Source: Gemmatimonadaceae bacterium (GTDB taxonomy: Bacteria > Gemmatimonadota > Gemmatimonadetes > Gemmatimonadales > Gemmatimonadaceae). Taken from it: a stretch of 64,000 bases of DNA. The position numbers were made by a program, and so were the translations under genes. Location of the stretch: contig JANJUF010000018.1 of the NCBI GenBank assembly GCA_024710705.1, forward strand, positions 1-64,000. Direction: 5' to 3'. The notes beneath the pieces are model-generated. The model saw only the letters and a program-made list of their open reading frames with translations, did not search any database and was not told where the DNA came from. Shown piece by piece: positions 42,316 to 46,623 of this stretch; within the stretch, counting starts at the first letter, position 1; the number at the start of each line of letters is the position of its first letter.

Positions 42316-42732
42316 ATGACTGGCGACGCACCGGCCGCGCGATTCGAACGCCCGCTCGAGGTCCTGGCCTCCGACATCGACGGCTTGGGCCACGTGAACA
42401 ACGTCGTGTACCTCCGCTGGGCCCAGGACGTCGCCACGGCGCACTGGGATGCGGCGGCGACCCCGACCCAACGCGAGACCCTCGCGTGGATCGCCCTGCG
42501 ACACGAAATCGACTACAAGCACCCCGCCCTGCCGGGCGACGCCCTGCTCGCATCCACGTGGGTGGGAAGCGCCGAGGCGGTGCGCTTTGAGCGCTTCGTG
42601 GAGATCCTGCGGGCGGGCGACCGAAAGGTCTGCGCCGCGGTGCGGACGATCTGGTGCCCGATCAGCCGCGCGACCGGCAAGGTGACGCGCGTGGACGACG
42701 CGGTGCGACGGGTGTTTTCGACGGGGGGCTGA
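42316..42732 (+). CDS. Acyl-CoA thioesterase, 4HBT hotdog family
   Basis: 138-residue hotdog-fold enzyme that hydrolyses an acyl-CoA. The active-site loop SDIDGLGHVNNVVYLRW (19-35, D22 as the likely acid) and the strand RHEIDYKHPALPGDALL place it with YbgC/FadM-like thioesterases. Substrate chain length cannot be inferred. Single forward gene between two minus-strand operons; its stop is six bases from the convergent next ORF. Confidence 0.88.
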   Translation: MTGDAPAARFERPLEVLASDIDGLGHVNNVVYLRWAQDVATAHWDAAATPTQRETLAWIALRHEIDYKHPALPGDALLASTWVGSAEAVRFERFVEILRAGDRKVCAAVRTIWCPISRATGKVTRVDDAVRRVFSTGG

Positions 42733-42738
42733 GCGCGG

Positions 42739-43653
42739 TCAATAAAAACGCGGCACGCAGGGCGCCACCGCCTGGTTCGTCCCGTCGGTGTCCATGAGCC
42801 GCGACCGCACTCCCGCCGCGCGCGCGAAGGCTGCCACCATCGCCGGGAGTTCATCGAAACTGCCGTCCTCGCTGACCAGTCCCTCAACCCGGTGAACCAG
42901 ATCCGTATCGAACGATTCGAAAAACCGCGCCGCGTGTGAATCGGGATCGGCGCGCCCGCGGGTGCCCTCGTGCGCACGCACGATGCGCACGATTTCCTGC
43001 GTGAGCTCGCGTCGCGTGCAGCTGCGTTGCCCAGGGCGGCGCGTGGCGGTGGCCGCATGGCGCGTCCAGAACTCGCTCCCGGGCGCGAGCGCCGGGAGGT
43101 TGATGTCCACGCGGGCGGTGGCCCGCACCGGCACACCAGCGAGGTACCATCGCCCAGCGTTGGGCCCCCGGCGGATCGGCACCGCGTAGCGCTCCACCAA
43201 GTCCGGGGACACGGCCGCCGAGAGATCAGTCGCGCCGAGATCGGTCATGCGCCGCGGATGGATCGGGAGCTGTGACTGCTCGACTTCCCGCACCTCCTCT
43301 TCGGCGCGCATGCCGCGCCAGTCCCGCGGCAGCACCTGCACGCTCGCACGCAGGGTTCGCTCTCCCTCGGCCACGCGCAACCGCACTTCCACGGTACCGC
43401 TCACCGCGATCGGCCCCGACCAGATGCGCGAGTGCACCGAGTCGCCACGGATGATCGGCGAACCGCGCACGGGATCGAAGCGCCAGCCGAGCACCGCGGC
43501 GATCGCGTCCGTCGGACCCTCGATCGCGCAACGCAGTGCGTCCGCGCGCACCACCGTCGCCGGGCACGAGAGCGTCGGCGCGTCTTGGGCGCCCAGTGGC
43601 CACGCCCAGAGCAGCAGCCCGAGGGCGAGGCGCCTGCTCAGGAGTGTGCGCAC
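42739..43653 (-). CDS. Alternative reading: secreted protein started internally at GTG 43653
   Basis: In-frame nested reading of the ORF above, 304 residues. A basic N-terminus, a hydrophobic core LALGLLLWAWPLGA and an AQD cut site form a normal Sec signal peptide that makes no sense in the middle of a cytoplasmic endonuclease. The mature part has two early cysteines and strands such as TVEVRLRVAEGERTLRASV. A C-terminal region with CTRRELTQEIVRIVRAHEG and SRLMDTDGTNQAVAPC is not recognised. If this start is used, the Vsr gene has lost its stop and the two products share a message. Confidence 0.5.
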   Translation of the reverse strand: MRTLLSRRLALGLLLWAWPLGAQDAPTLSCPATVVRADALRCAIEGPTDAIAAVLGWRFDPVRGSPIIRGDSVHSRIWSGPIAVSGTVEVRLRVAEGERTLRASVQVLPRDWRGMRAEEEVREVEQSQLPIHPRRMTDLGATDLSAAVSPDLVERYAVPIRRGPNAGRWYLAGVPVRATARVDINLPALAPGSEFWTRHAATATRRPGQRSCTRRELTQEIVRIVRAHEGTRGRADPDSHAARFFESFDTDLVHRVEGLVSEDGSFDELPAMVAAFARAAGVRSRLMDTDGTNQAVAPCVPRFY

Positions 43654-44037
43654 GAGGCGCCGCAGTGGCGCCTCACGCTTCAGTTCGCATTCCCAGATCA
43701 CGTGCACGTGCCATCCGGCCGCGCGGAGGAAGTATCGCACCCGCGCGTCCCGGGCCACGTTGGCCTCGAGCTTCTTGCGCCAGAACTCTCGGCGGGTCTT
43801 GGGGAGCGCACGCCCCGCGCAGTCGTGGGCGTGCCAGAAGCAGCCGTGCACGAAGACGACGGTCTTGATTCGCGAGAGCACCACATCCGGCGAACCCGGA
43901 AGGTCGCGGTGGTGCAGCCGGTATCGCAGCCCGGCCGCGTGGAGGGCGCGACGCACGAGCATCTCGGGCTTCGTGTCCTTTCCACGAATGGCCGCCATGA
44001 TGCGGCTGCGAACCGCCGAGACACGCCCCCGAGGCAT
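42739..44037 (-). CDS. Vsr endonuclease domain continuous with a secreted protein of unknown function
   Basis: 432-codon ORF in two unlike parts. Residues 1-125 are a very-short-patch repair (Vsr) endonuclease, which nicks DNA at T:G mismatches in 5-methylcytosine sites. Every key residue falls at E. coli numbering: D51 (LPGSPD), H64, W68 and H69 (HGCFWHAHDC), and zinc ligands C66, H71, C73 and C117 (WECEL). Residues 129-432 start with a signal peptide (RTLLSRRLALGLLLWAWPLGAQ) and continue as an unrecognised exported domain. No stop separates them. GTG at 43653, just after an 8-bp hairpin, could start the second protein separately as 304 residues. No Dcm methylase gene is in the window. ATG 44037 follows the nrdJ terminator. 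Confidence 0.8.
   Translation of the reverse strand: MPRGRVSAVRSRIMAAIRGKDTKPEMLVRRALHAAGLRYRLHHRDLPGSPDVVLSRIKTVVFVHGCFWHAHDCAGRALPKTRREFWRKKLEANVARDARVRYFLRAAGWHVHVIWECELKREAPLRRLVRTLLSRRLALGLLLWAWPLGAQDAPTLSCPATVVRADALRCAIEGPTDAIAAVLGWRFDPVRGSPIIRGDSVHSRIWSGPIAVSGTVEVRLRVAEGERTLRASVQVLPRDWRGMRAEEEVREVEQSQLPIHPRRMTDLGATDLSAAVSPDLVERYAVPIRRGPNAGRWYLAGVPVRATARVDINLPALAPGSEFWTRHAATATRRPGQRSCTRRELTQEIVRIVRAHEGTRGRADPDSHAARFFESFDTDLVHRVEGLVSEDGSFDELPAMVAAFARAAGVRSRLMDTDGTNQAVAPCVPRFY
43654..43674 (-). promoter_or_regulatory. Hairpin directly before the internal GTG in the Vsr ORF
   Basis: GAGGCGCC (43654-43661) and GGCGCCTC (43667-43674) form a perfect 8-bp stem with a 5-base loop, and in the mRNA it ends at the base before GTG 43653. 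The stem contains the GAGG that would serve as ribosome site for that GTG, so it could limit or time internal initiation. Confidence 0.4.
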
Positions 44038-44048
44038 GCCGGTATGAT

Positions 44049-44086
44049 ACTCAAAACAAAACGGGCCGGTCCGAAGGACCGGCCCG
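44049..44086 (-). terminator. Strong intrinsic terminator of nrdJ
   Basis: CGGGCCGGTCC and GGACCGGCCCG (44062-44072 and 44076-44086) form an 11-bp stem with a 3-base loop. On the minus strand it is followed by TTTTGTTTTGA (44061-44051). It lies 30 bases after the nrdJ stop and 12 bases before the Vsr ATG. Confidence 0.93.
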
Positions 44087-44115
44087 CCCGTTCAGCTGAG
44101 AGACTCAGCGCGAAC

Positions 44116-46623
44116 TCACCCGCACTCGCTAAACCCGCACACGTGGCACTTCACGCAGCCTTCCGCGAACTCCAGCTGCGAGCCGCAATCCGGGCAGGTG
44201 CCGATGAACGCATCCCCACCGGAGATGGATTCGAACGCCATCTGCGCGCCGGAGACCGTGGCGCTGGCCTGCGGCTGTGAGACCACCGGCTTCGGCGCGA
44301 TCGCCACCGGCTGCTCGGCCGTCGTCGTCAGCAGTTCCTGCTGCACGCCCTGCTTGGAGCGCATCCAATCCTCGAGCGCGAGCCCGATTGCGTCCGGCAC
44401 GGAGAGCACTTTGTTCGGGCCGAGTCCCACCGCGCGGTCCGACGAAATGCCGCGCAGTTGGCGATGCACCTGCTGGATCGGGATGCCCGAGCGCAGCGCC
44501 AGCGATACCAGGCGTCCCATCGCCTCGGCGTCGGCCATGGCCGAACCACCGGCCTTGCCGAGGTTGATGAAGACCTCGAACGGCTGGCCCTTATCGTCCT
44601 CGGTGATGTGCACGAACATCGTGCCCAGCGGCGTCTCCTTGCGGATGGCCGTGGAGCGGAGGATGTCCGGGCGCGCACGCTTCTGGCGACGCTGGAGATT
44701 CTCGGCTTCGGAATCGAACAGCATCTTCTGCAGGCGGTCGTTGGCCGACTGCAGGTCGGCGAGGCGCTCGTTGAGGTCGGCGATCTCCTGGCGGGTGGCC
44801 GAGTCGTCCACCTTGCCTTCACGCTTGGCGGCGGCGTCGGCGGTGGCACCGGTGGAGAGCACCTGGCCGTCGCGCGAGCCATCGCGGTACACGGTGACGC
44901 CCTTGCACTTCATCTCGAACGCGAGCTCGTAGATGGCGCGGACGTCGTCCTTGGTGGCGGCGTGCGAGAAGTTGGTGGTCTTGGAAATGGCCGAGTCGCA
45001 GTGCAGCTGGAAGGCCGCCTGCATCTTGATGTGCCACTCGGGCGCGATGTTGTTGGCGGTGGCGAAGACCTTCTGCCACTTCACCGGCACCTCGCTGTGG
45101 ATCACCGAGCCGGTCTTGGCGATGCGCTCCATCAGCGCCTCGGAGTACCAGCCCTCCTTCTTGGCGATGGCGACGAAGTCCTCGTTGACGTCGGGCATCA
45201 TCACGCCGGCCTGGTTGCGCATGAAGGCCACGGCGAAGAGCGGCTCGAGGCCCGACGAGCAGCCGGCGATGATGGAGATCGTGCCGGTGGGTGCGACAGT
45301 GGTGACGTTGCAGTTGCGGAGCTTCATCTCCGGCCGAATGCGCTGGCCGTTCTCGTCGCGCGCGCAGGTGGCGTCGGGCCCCCAGATGGATTGCGCCCAC
45401 TCGGGGAACGCGCCGCGCTCCTCGGCCAGCTGGGCCGAGGCCTTCTTGCCCTCGACGTCCACGAACTCCATCACCTTGCGGCCGAACTCCACGCCCTCGG
45501 GCGAGTCATAGACGATGCCGAGGCGGATGAGCGCGTCGGCGAAGCCCATCACGCCCAGGCCGATGCGGCGGATGCGCTTGGACAGCGCGTCGATCTCCGG
45601 CAGCGGGTACTTGTTGGCGTCAATGACGTTGTCGAGGAAGCGCGTGGAGAGGTGGATGTCCTTGGCGAAGGACTTCCAATCCATCTTCCCATTCTCGACG
45701 TAGTAGCCGACGTTGATCGAGCCGAGGTTGCAGACGTCGTAGGCCAGCAGCGGCTGTTCGCCGCAGGGGTTGGTGGCCTCGTAGGCGCCGAGGTGCGGCA
45801 CCGGGTTGTAGCGATTGGCTTCGTCAATGAAGAAGACGCCGGGCTCGCCGGTGCGCCACGCACCCTCGATCATCTTGTCCCAGACGTCCTGGGCCTGCAG
45901 GGTGCCGGTGACCTTCTTGGTCACGGGATCCACGAGTTCATAGGAGCCGCCGGCCTTCAGCGCCTGCATGAACTTCGTGGTCACGCCCACCGAGATGTTG
46001 AAGTTCGTGATCTTGGTGAGGTCTTCCTTGCACGTGATGAACTCCATCACGTCAGGATGATCCACGCGCAAGATGCCCATGTTGGCGCCACGGCGCGTGC
46101 CGCCCTGCTTCACCGCGTCGGTGGACGCGTCGTAGAGCTGCATGAAGGAGATGGGGCCGCTGGCCACGCCGGTGGTGGAGCGCACCATCGAGCCGCGCGG
46201 ACGCAGTCGCGAGAACGAGAAGCCCGTGCCGCCACCCGACTGATGGATGAGCGCCATCGAGCGAAGGGTGTCGTAGATGCCGCTGTGTCCGTTGGAGAGC
46301 GCATCGTCCACCGGCAGGACGAAGCAAGCCGACAGCTGCCCCAAGGGGCGGCCGGCGTTCATGAGGGTGGGCGAGTTCGGCTCGAAGCGCCGCTGCGTCA
46401 TCAGCTCATAGAACTGATTGGCGACCTTCTCCACCTGCTTGTCGGTGGCGCCGTACCGCCGATCCGCTTCCGCGATGGTCGTCGCGACCCGCCAGAACAT
46501 GTCCTCCGGCGTCTCCACCGGCTTACCGGACTTGTCCTTGACGAGGTAGCGCTTCTCGAGAACGGTGCGCGCGTTCTGGGAGAGCGTCGCCGGCGTGGCG
46601 GGCGGGTTGGCGGGGAGCGGCAT
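44116..46623 (-). CDS. nrdJ: Adenosylcobalamin-dependent (class II) ribonucleotide reductase
   Basis: 835 residues. It makes deoxyribonucleotides using a B12 radical, without need for or harm from oxygen. The active site matches T. maritima NrdJ in spacing: thiyl Cys287 inside NPCGEQPL (N285, E289), and the redox pair C100 (LSACFVL) and C298 (YDVCNLGS). A middle region up to about 570 covers the rest of the barrel. A flexible part with QQVHRQLRGISSD follows, and the C-terminus is a zinc ribbon (CPDCG, CVKCHVCG) that likely re-reduces the enzyme. A 472-base gap lies upstream and a strong terminator follows. Confidence 0.97.
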   Translation of the reverse strand: MPLPANPPATPATLSQNARTVLEKRYLVKDKSGKPVETPEDMFWRVATTIAEADRRYGATDKQVEKVANQFYELMTQRRFEPNSPTLMNAGRPLGQLSACFVLPVDDALSNGHSGIYDTLRSMALIHQSGGGTGFSFSRLRPRGSMVRSTTGVASGPISFMQLYDASTDAVKQGGTRRGANMGILRVDHPDVMEFITCKEDLTKITNFNISVGVTTKFMQALKAGGSYELVDPVTKKVTGTLQAQDVWDKMIEGAWRTGEPGVFFIDEANRYNPVPHLGAYEATNPCGEQPLLAYDVCNLGSINVGYYVENGKMDWKSFAKDIHLSTRFLDNVIDANKYPLPEIDALSKRIRRIGLGVMGFADALIRLGIVYDSPEGVEFGRKVMEFVDVEGKKASAQLAEERGAFPEWAQSIWGPDATCARDENGQRIRPEMKLRNCNVTTVAPTGTISIIAGCSSGLEPLFAVAFMRNQAGVMMPDVNEDFVAIAKKEGWYSEALMERIAKTGSVIHSEVPVKWQKVFATANNIAPEWHIKMQAAFQLHCDSAISKTTNFSHAATKDDVRAIYELAFEMKCKGVTVYRDGSRDGQVLSTGATADAAAKREGKVDDSATRQEIADLNERLADLQSANDRLQKMLFDSEAENLQRRQKRARPDILRSTAIRKETPLGTMFVHITEDDKGQPFEVFINLGKAGGSAMADAEAMGRLVSLALRSGIPIQQVHRQLRGISSDRAVGLGPNKVLSVPDAIGLALEDWMRSKQGVQQELLTTTAEQPVAIAPKPVVSQPQASATVSGAQMAFESISGGDAFIGTCPDCGSQLEFAEGCVKCHVCGFSECG

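Follow-up and report, generated by a model that had tools for sequence, protein, structure and literature searches.

A vsr mismatch endonuclease gene continuous in frame with a putative exported module in a Gemmatimonadaceae bacterium

The locus and its reading frame

The window, i.e., the whole stretch of 64,000 nucleotides that was analyzed (contig JANJUF010000018.1 of assembly GCA_024710705.1), contains on its reverse strand a continuous open reading frame of 432 codons, which runs from an ATG at position 44037 to a TGA at position 42739. It encodes a full Vsr endonuclease domain, a putative Sec-type signal peptide (residues 129–150) and a predicted exported module of 282 residues. The features of the locus are as follows:

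42316–42732, forward strand: convergent thioesterase-like gene, the edge of the empty site described below, bordering the vsr stop in the relative G005
42739–44037, reverse strand: merged open reading frame
42742–43302, reverse strand: C-terminal domain of the exported module (residues 246–432), of no known family, assigned from alignments and the structural model, with no Pfam match
42750–42768, reverse strand: terminator-like hairpin with T run at the 3′ end of the merged frame
42934–42972, reverse strand: HEGT...SH motif (residues 356–368), with H206, E207, G208, S217 and H218 (model numbering) invariant or nearly so
43330–43587, reverse strand: Ig/PKD/FnIII-like β-sandwich (residues 151–236), assigned from the AlphaFold2 model and partial Foldseek matches
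43588–43653, reverse strand: putative Sec-type signal peptide or anchor (residues 129–150), VRTLLSRRLALGLLLWAWPLGA followed by Q, assigned from hydropathy, residues and the tail alignment
43630–44037, reverse strand: Vsr endonuclease domain with its conserved C-terminal tail (residues 1–136), assigned from TIGR00632, Pfam Vsr, the 1cw0 alignment and the tails of relatives
43654–43674, reverse strand: 8-bp hairpin GAGGCGCC-ACTGC-GGCGCCTC directly before GTG 43653, within the Vsr codons for REAPLRRL
44059–44089, reverse strand: intrinsic-terminator-like site that follows the ribonucleotide reductase gene located upstream, 21 bp before the start of the merged frame
44116–46623, reverse strand: ribonucleotide reductase gene upstream of vsr, which delimits the variable locus on the other side

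GC content is highest at the third codon position in nearly every segment of the merged frame, and as this phase is the same through the junction, the merged frame reads as a single coding frame. The initial annotation had described a Vsr protein joined in frame to a secreted-type protein with no stop codon between them, and this is borne out by the 432-codon open frame, the match to the Vsr profile and the hydrophobic stretch at the joint.

As repair enzymes, Vsr proteins are small and vary very little. Stand-alone Vsr proteins comprise about 130–190 residues, a size that is usual and not strictly defining, and the merged protein with its 432 residues lies outside of this range. It contains 313 residues after the WECELK motif, compared to 109 other cellular homologues, in which the tail has a median length of about 24 residues and never exceeds 78, and to 80 homologues from viral contigs (median 30.5, maximum 57). 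A tail of this length, set against these maxima, argues that the merge did not arise by chance. Similarly, the next largest open frame with a strong Vsr match in 395 genomes of the phylum has 288 residues compared to 450 for the merged locus. The merge is exceptional among Vsr proteins, with a comparable extension in none of the approximately 190 homologues measured. A fusion of Vsr with an exported protein was found in no other record searched and is known from one draft assembly (137 contigs, 87.6% complete). No such fusion appears among the titles and abstracts listed in searches of the literature, which is weak evidence of its absence.

Terminator-like sites are located ahead of the merged frame and at its 3′ end, and none is found at the joint of its two parts. 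No sigma-70-like promoter was found in the region, and the vsr ATG at 44037 is not preceded by a good Shine-Dalgarno sequence. Within positions 44037–44058, a TATCAT hexamer precedes the vsr ATG by 6 nt, directly behind the terminator-like site that follows the ribonucleotide reductase gene. From this hexamer and the lack of a good Shine-Dalgarno sequence, the transcript is possibly leaderless.

The Vsr half and its locus in the genus

Residues 8–118 of the 432-residue protein match TIGR00632 with 137.5 bits (E 2.5e-40; model positions 8–119 of 119; curated cut-off 97.85 bits), and the match to Pfam Vsr (PF03852) reaches 100 bits. The phmmer alignment with E. coli Vsr (1cw0) is ungapped, so that the residue numbers are identical in both proteins. 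It had been claimed that all catalytic and zinc residues are at the E. coli positions, and this alignment confirms the claim: the zinc ligands C66, H71, C73 and C117 are all present, and T63 is replaced by valine. The active-site residues E25, D51, H64, H69 and D97 are all present as well (list from PMC12907096). Judged by its sequence, the Vsr half retains the residues needed for nicking at T:G mismatches. Pairwise dN/dS values of the Vsr half against four relatives of the same genus are 0.14–0.21 and mostly reflect the time before the fusion.

The Vsr proteins of these four relatives (G005, G011, G002 and G015) are 78–83% identical to the merged Vsr half. The initial annotation had proposed to compare relatives for a separate vsr stop, and such a stop is present in all four, 4–5 codons past the common tail LVRxLxxRR. 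The proteins end with LVRTLKRRRAALG in G005, LVRVLQQRRRAIR in G011, LVRRLRQRRDAQQ in G002 and LVRTLLRRRDADV in G015, each followed by the stop, and the corresponding sequence in the window is LVRTLLSRRLALGLLLWAW, which is read without a stop. The stop-ended tails of the relatives show that the Vsr tail in the window was inherited and that its stop disappeared immediately after SRR.

In G005, 3 bp separate the end of the convergent thioesterase gene from the vsr stop. In the window, about 0.88 kb of extra DNA lies between the Vsr tail and this thioesterase gene, the landmarks being about 0.9 kb apart, and both flanks are collinear with G005, with the thioesterase gene on one side and the ribonucleotide reductase gene on the other. 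As the vsr stop abuts the same convergent gene, G005 represents the empty site, a clean one that comes from this one relative. Thioesterase copies in G007, G010 and G016 have neither vsr nor exported-gene neighbors. No convincing target-site duplication, flanking repeats, mobile element or element ends were found at the edges of the segment. The most parsimonious scenario is that the lineage of the window acquired about 0.88 kb at the position of the vsr stop. The suggestion of a recent loss of the vsr stop is therefore right as far as the stop is gone, and it falls short because the stop and the thioesterase gene lie side by side in G005: the stop was not lost alone but together with the arrival of the extra DNA. 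A point mutation between two old neighboring genes is ruled out by the same 0.88 kb.

No dcm gene adjoins the merged frame, as had been noted before. The genome search for a cytosine-5 methylase proposed earlier extends this result, as no PF00145 match was found in the assembly; the assembly is 87.6% complete and may lack about 12% of the genome, so that this absence is not proof. With no detectable C5 methylase, vsr looks orphaned in this genome. In G011 and G015, a Dcm-like methylase of the same kind directly precedes vsr, and in G011 a nuclease of the MvaI/BcnI family adjoins the methylase. The gap at this locus contains HigBA-like open reading frames in G005 and VapBC-like ones, judged by eye, in G002. 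The presence of these different genes in the relatives shows that the locus next to the ribonucleotide reductase gene is variable. We infer that restriction-modification cargo came to this stretch and partly went again, leaving vsr behind. A depletion of CCWGG as trace of past restriction was considered and rejected, as the window contains 179 sites compared to 162 ± 11 expected.

Several further observations concern the neighborhoods of vsr. In G011 (locus L121, 918–7243), the ribonucleotide reductase gene is followed by two C5 methylases, FRG, GmrSD_N (DUF262), the MvaI/BcnI-family nuclease and vsr, a gene set that constitutes a restriction-modification/defense island at the genus-variable locus. 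Similar short lipoproteins (GY.RG.VRG.N.PG) flank vsr on different sides in G002 (L123, 6900–7412) and G015 (L122, 7093–7665). Elsewhere in the phylum (L018–L023 and L027), vsr is directly followed by an open reading frame which by eye resembles an EcoRII-type N-terminal region (W..RVS...W.WY).

The exported module and the joint

The C-terminal half of the merged protein had been described as an unknown exported domain. It has no Pfam match, in agreement with this description, and yet it belongs to an unannotated lipoprotein family of the phylum, of which it forms the complete C-terminal module. The family, referred to here as the HEGT family, is present in 38 of 395 phylum genomes (E ≤ 0.001) and absent from the 16 other genomes of the genus. 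The exported module matches the family model with 351.7 bits over positions 1–274 of 274, the window sequence being one row of this model, and independent pairwise matches to the family range from E 1e-27 to 1e-6. Its identity to the best relatives (G184, G117, G183, G108, G040 and G271), which have open frames of 577–671 residues, is 25–31%, and it keeps the GPN, N, HEG and SH residues as well as Cys190 (model numbering) of the family. In the full-length relatives examined, about 280–390 residues precede the module. Most of these proteins have a lipoprotein-type signal, and Vsr is joined to none of them. Loci of this exported, mostly lipoprotein, phylum-wide family are L124, L125, L127–L130, L132, L134 and positions 42742–43587 of the window.

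The AlphaFold2 model of the exported module (pLDDT 94, pTM 0.86) consists of an Ig/FnIII/PKD-like sandwich followed by a mixed domain with three long helices. In Foldseek searches of PDB and BFVD, only the sandwich was matched, partially, to Ig/FnIII/PKD folds, and no solved structure was found that includes the C-terminal domain.

At the joint, the frame past WECELKREAPLRRLVRTLLSRR continues via LALGLLLWAWPLGA and QDAP into the 282-residue module. The hydrophobic stretch LALGLLLWAWPLGA (residues 137–150) directly follows SRR, and according to the tail alignment the first eight residues of the putative signal peptide are ancestral Vsr tail. The Sec signal peptide proposed near residues 129–151 is placed at 129–150 by hydropathy and residues. 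Its hydrophobicity is modest, with a best 19-residue Kyte-Doolittle mean of 1.15, and it lies behind a folded zinc domain of 128 residues, an arrangement that may or may not allow export. In the long frame, the putative signal begins at residue 129 and it would be N-terminal only with a start at GTG 43653.

This raises the possibility that two proteins are made from one frame, the exported protein mainly from GTG 43653 (304 residues, cleaved after LGA), with read-through from the vsr ATG yielding little fusion protein or an unstable one. The GTG is located exactly where a normal signal peptide would start (n-region RTLLSRR, core LALGLLLWAWPLGA), and a signal at the extreme N-terminus is usual, the relatives examined mostly starting with a lipoprotein-type signal. 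Against this, the GTG is an inherited Vsr codon, homologous to the valine of LVR in the Vsr tail of relatives that lack the exported gene. Moreover, no Shine-Dalgarno site precedes it at proper spacing: the sole GAGG is 17 nt away and paired inside the strong hairpin, and the anti-Shine-Dalgarno duplex energy at this start is −2.0 compared to a background mean of −4.0, i.e., poorer than random. There is furthermore no upstream stop permitting translational coupling, and the lack of a sigma-70-like promoter applies here as well. The case of overlapping genes in one frame, as put forward in the initial annotation, is thereby weakened to a doubtful option. The 8-bp hairpin proposed with it does exist, and the start behind it is a weak one. 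Perfect hairpins of 8 bp or more occur 38 times in the 64 kb (overlapping ones and this one counted), and relatives do not preserve this hairpin as such. A search for an RNA element at the joint gave no Rfam match. The combination of GTG and GAGG hairpin as a designed start was rejected, given the distant, paired GAGG and the hairpin's lack of conservation. Internal initiation at GTG 43653 is possible but not favored, and the default product is the chain of 432 residues.

Origin of the merged gene and comparison with known systems

Taken together, the locus is probably a genuine, lineage-specific in-frame fusion of vsr with an exported module, predicted to yield a cytoplasmic Vsr domain, a signal or anchor and an exported domain. 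Among the three cases offered at the outset, a real fusion fits best with the empty site in G005, the inherited tails and the one open frame.

An alternative that we hold only as a tentative possibility is decay, i.e., vsr being useless without a methylase and the fusion being a chance event that is tolerated while vsr is being lost, with a product that is rarely made or inert. The orphan state of vsr would fit this scenario, as would the variability of the locus in the genus and the lack of a sigma-70-like promoter and of a good Shine-Dalgarno sequence before the vsr ATG. Furthermore, a fitness cost and a DNA-damage response are described for a Vsr-like nuclease that lacks its methylase in Caulobacter (PMC12907096), and such a cost would favor loss. 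However, neither half contains a broken codon or stop, the catalytic and zinc residues and the conserved residues of the exported module are intact, the model of the latter is confident, and the dN/dS values of the Vsr half given above speak against decay.

An assembly or sequence artefact, i.e., a chimeric join or an indel that merged two separate genes, would be compatible with the occurrence of the fusion in a single draft assembly and in no other record searched, and it is nevertheless unlikely, as the collinearity of both flanks with G005 excludes a gross chimera and a single indel or substitution is rejected as simple cause: conservation of the Vsr frame extends to codon 136 with the signal peptide directly after it, an ordinary vsr end is restored by no single indel past this codon, the alternative frames remaining open for 75 and 133 codons, and stops reachable in one step (at W144, W146 or Q151) would lie within the signal peptide or directly behind it.

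Returning to the in-frame fusion, the merged gene unites two known kinds of protein in a single lineage, and a plausible mechanism can be outlined from the sequences. An insertion or recombination event would have brought in the approximately 0.88 kb of DNA encoding the exported module. The start of the new signal peptide (VRTLLSRR) would have been recruited from the Vsr tail, and the incoming DNA would have supplied its hydrophobic core. Translation from the vsr ATG would then give one chain of 432 residues, of which the Vsr domain would fold in the cytoplasm with an N-in orientation, residues 132–150 would serve as an internal signal for Sec, and the Ig-like and HEGT domains would be exported. 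Signal peptidase may cut after LGA, so that the exported domain would be freed and Vsr left in the membrane with a hydrophobic tail. Alternatively, the chain may stay uncut as a ToxR-like N-in/C-out protein.

A more far-reaching reading, which we consider improbable, is that of a working membrane-tethered or signal-bearing Vsr: the orphan would have been kept and fused to an exported domain via a signal derived in part from the Vsr tail, either taming a potentially harmful orphan Vsr at the membrane or supplying a new N-in/C-out protein. If true, the membrane-tethered Vsr would represent a signal peptide born at the joint of a gene fusion. 

The locus offers a case, open to experimental test, in which the end of a cytoplasmic protein may have given rise to part of a signal peptide. 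With its un-fused relatives and the empty site, it shows how an orphan probably left by a lost restriction-modification system can become part of a new reading frame, and it adds a case of vsr without a methylase to the question of why cells keep Vsr without an evident source of 5-methylcytosine.

Compared to E. coli Vsr, the merged protein contains the whole domain with the active-site and zinc residues at identical numbers and differs in that it has no stop after the domain, carries in addition a signal or anchor and an exported module, has the T63V exchange and occurs in a genome in which no methylase was found. In the MvaI/BcnI restriction-modification island of G011, vsr is of the same lineage and likewise lies between the ribonucleotide reductase gene and the region of a PP2C-like gene, whereas the window lost or never had the methylase and nuclease, so that vsr alone remains. 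VsrA of Caulobacter (PMC12907096) is likewise a Vsr-like protein whose gene has no adjacent methylase gene; however, Caulobacter has the solitary methylase ScmA elsewhere, whereas none was found in the 87.6% complete window genome, and no exported domain is described for VsrA. With the HEGT lipoprotein family, the window protein shares the Ig-like and HEGT module at full length, including GPN, HEG and SH, but in place of the N-terminal 280–390 residues and the lipoprotein signal it carries Vsr and a non-lipoprotein signal. Finally, ToxR-like N-in/C-out proteins combine a DNA-acting cytoplasmic domain, one membrane-spanning segment and an exported domain. The likeness to the predicted merged protein is one of architecture, with no homology claimed, and the merged protein differs from them in being an enzyme instead of a transcription factor and in its possible signal peptidase site.
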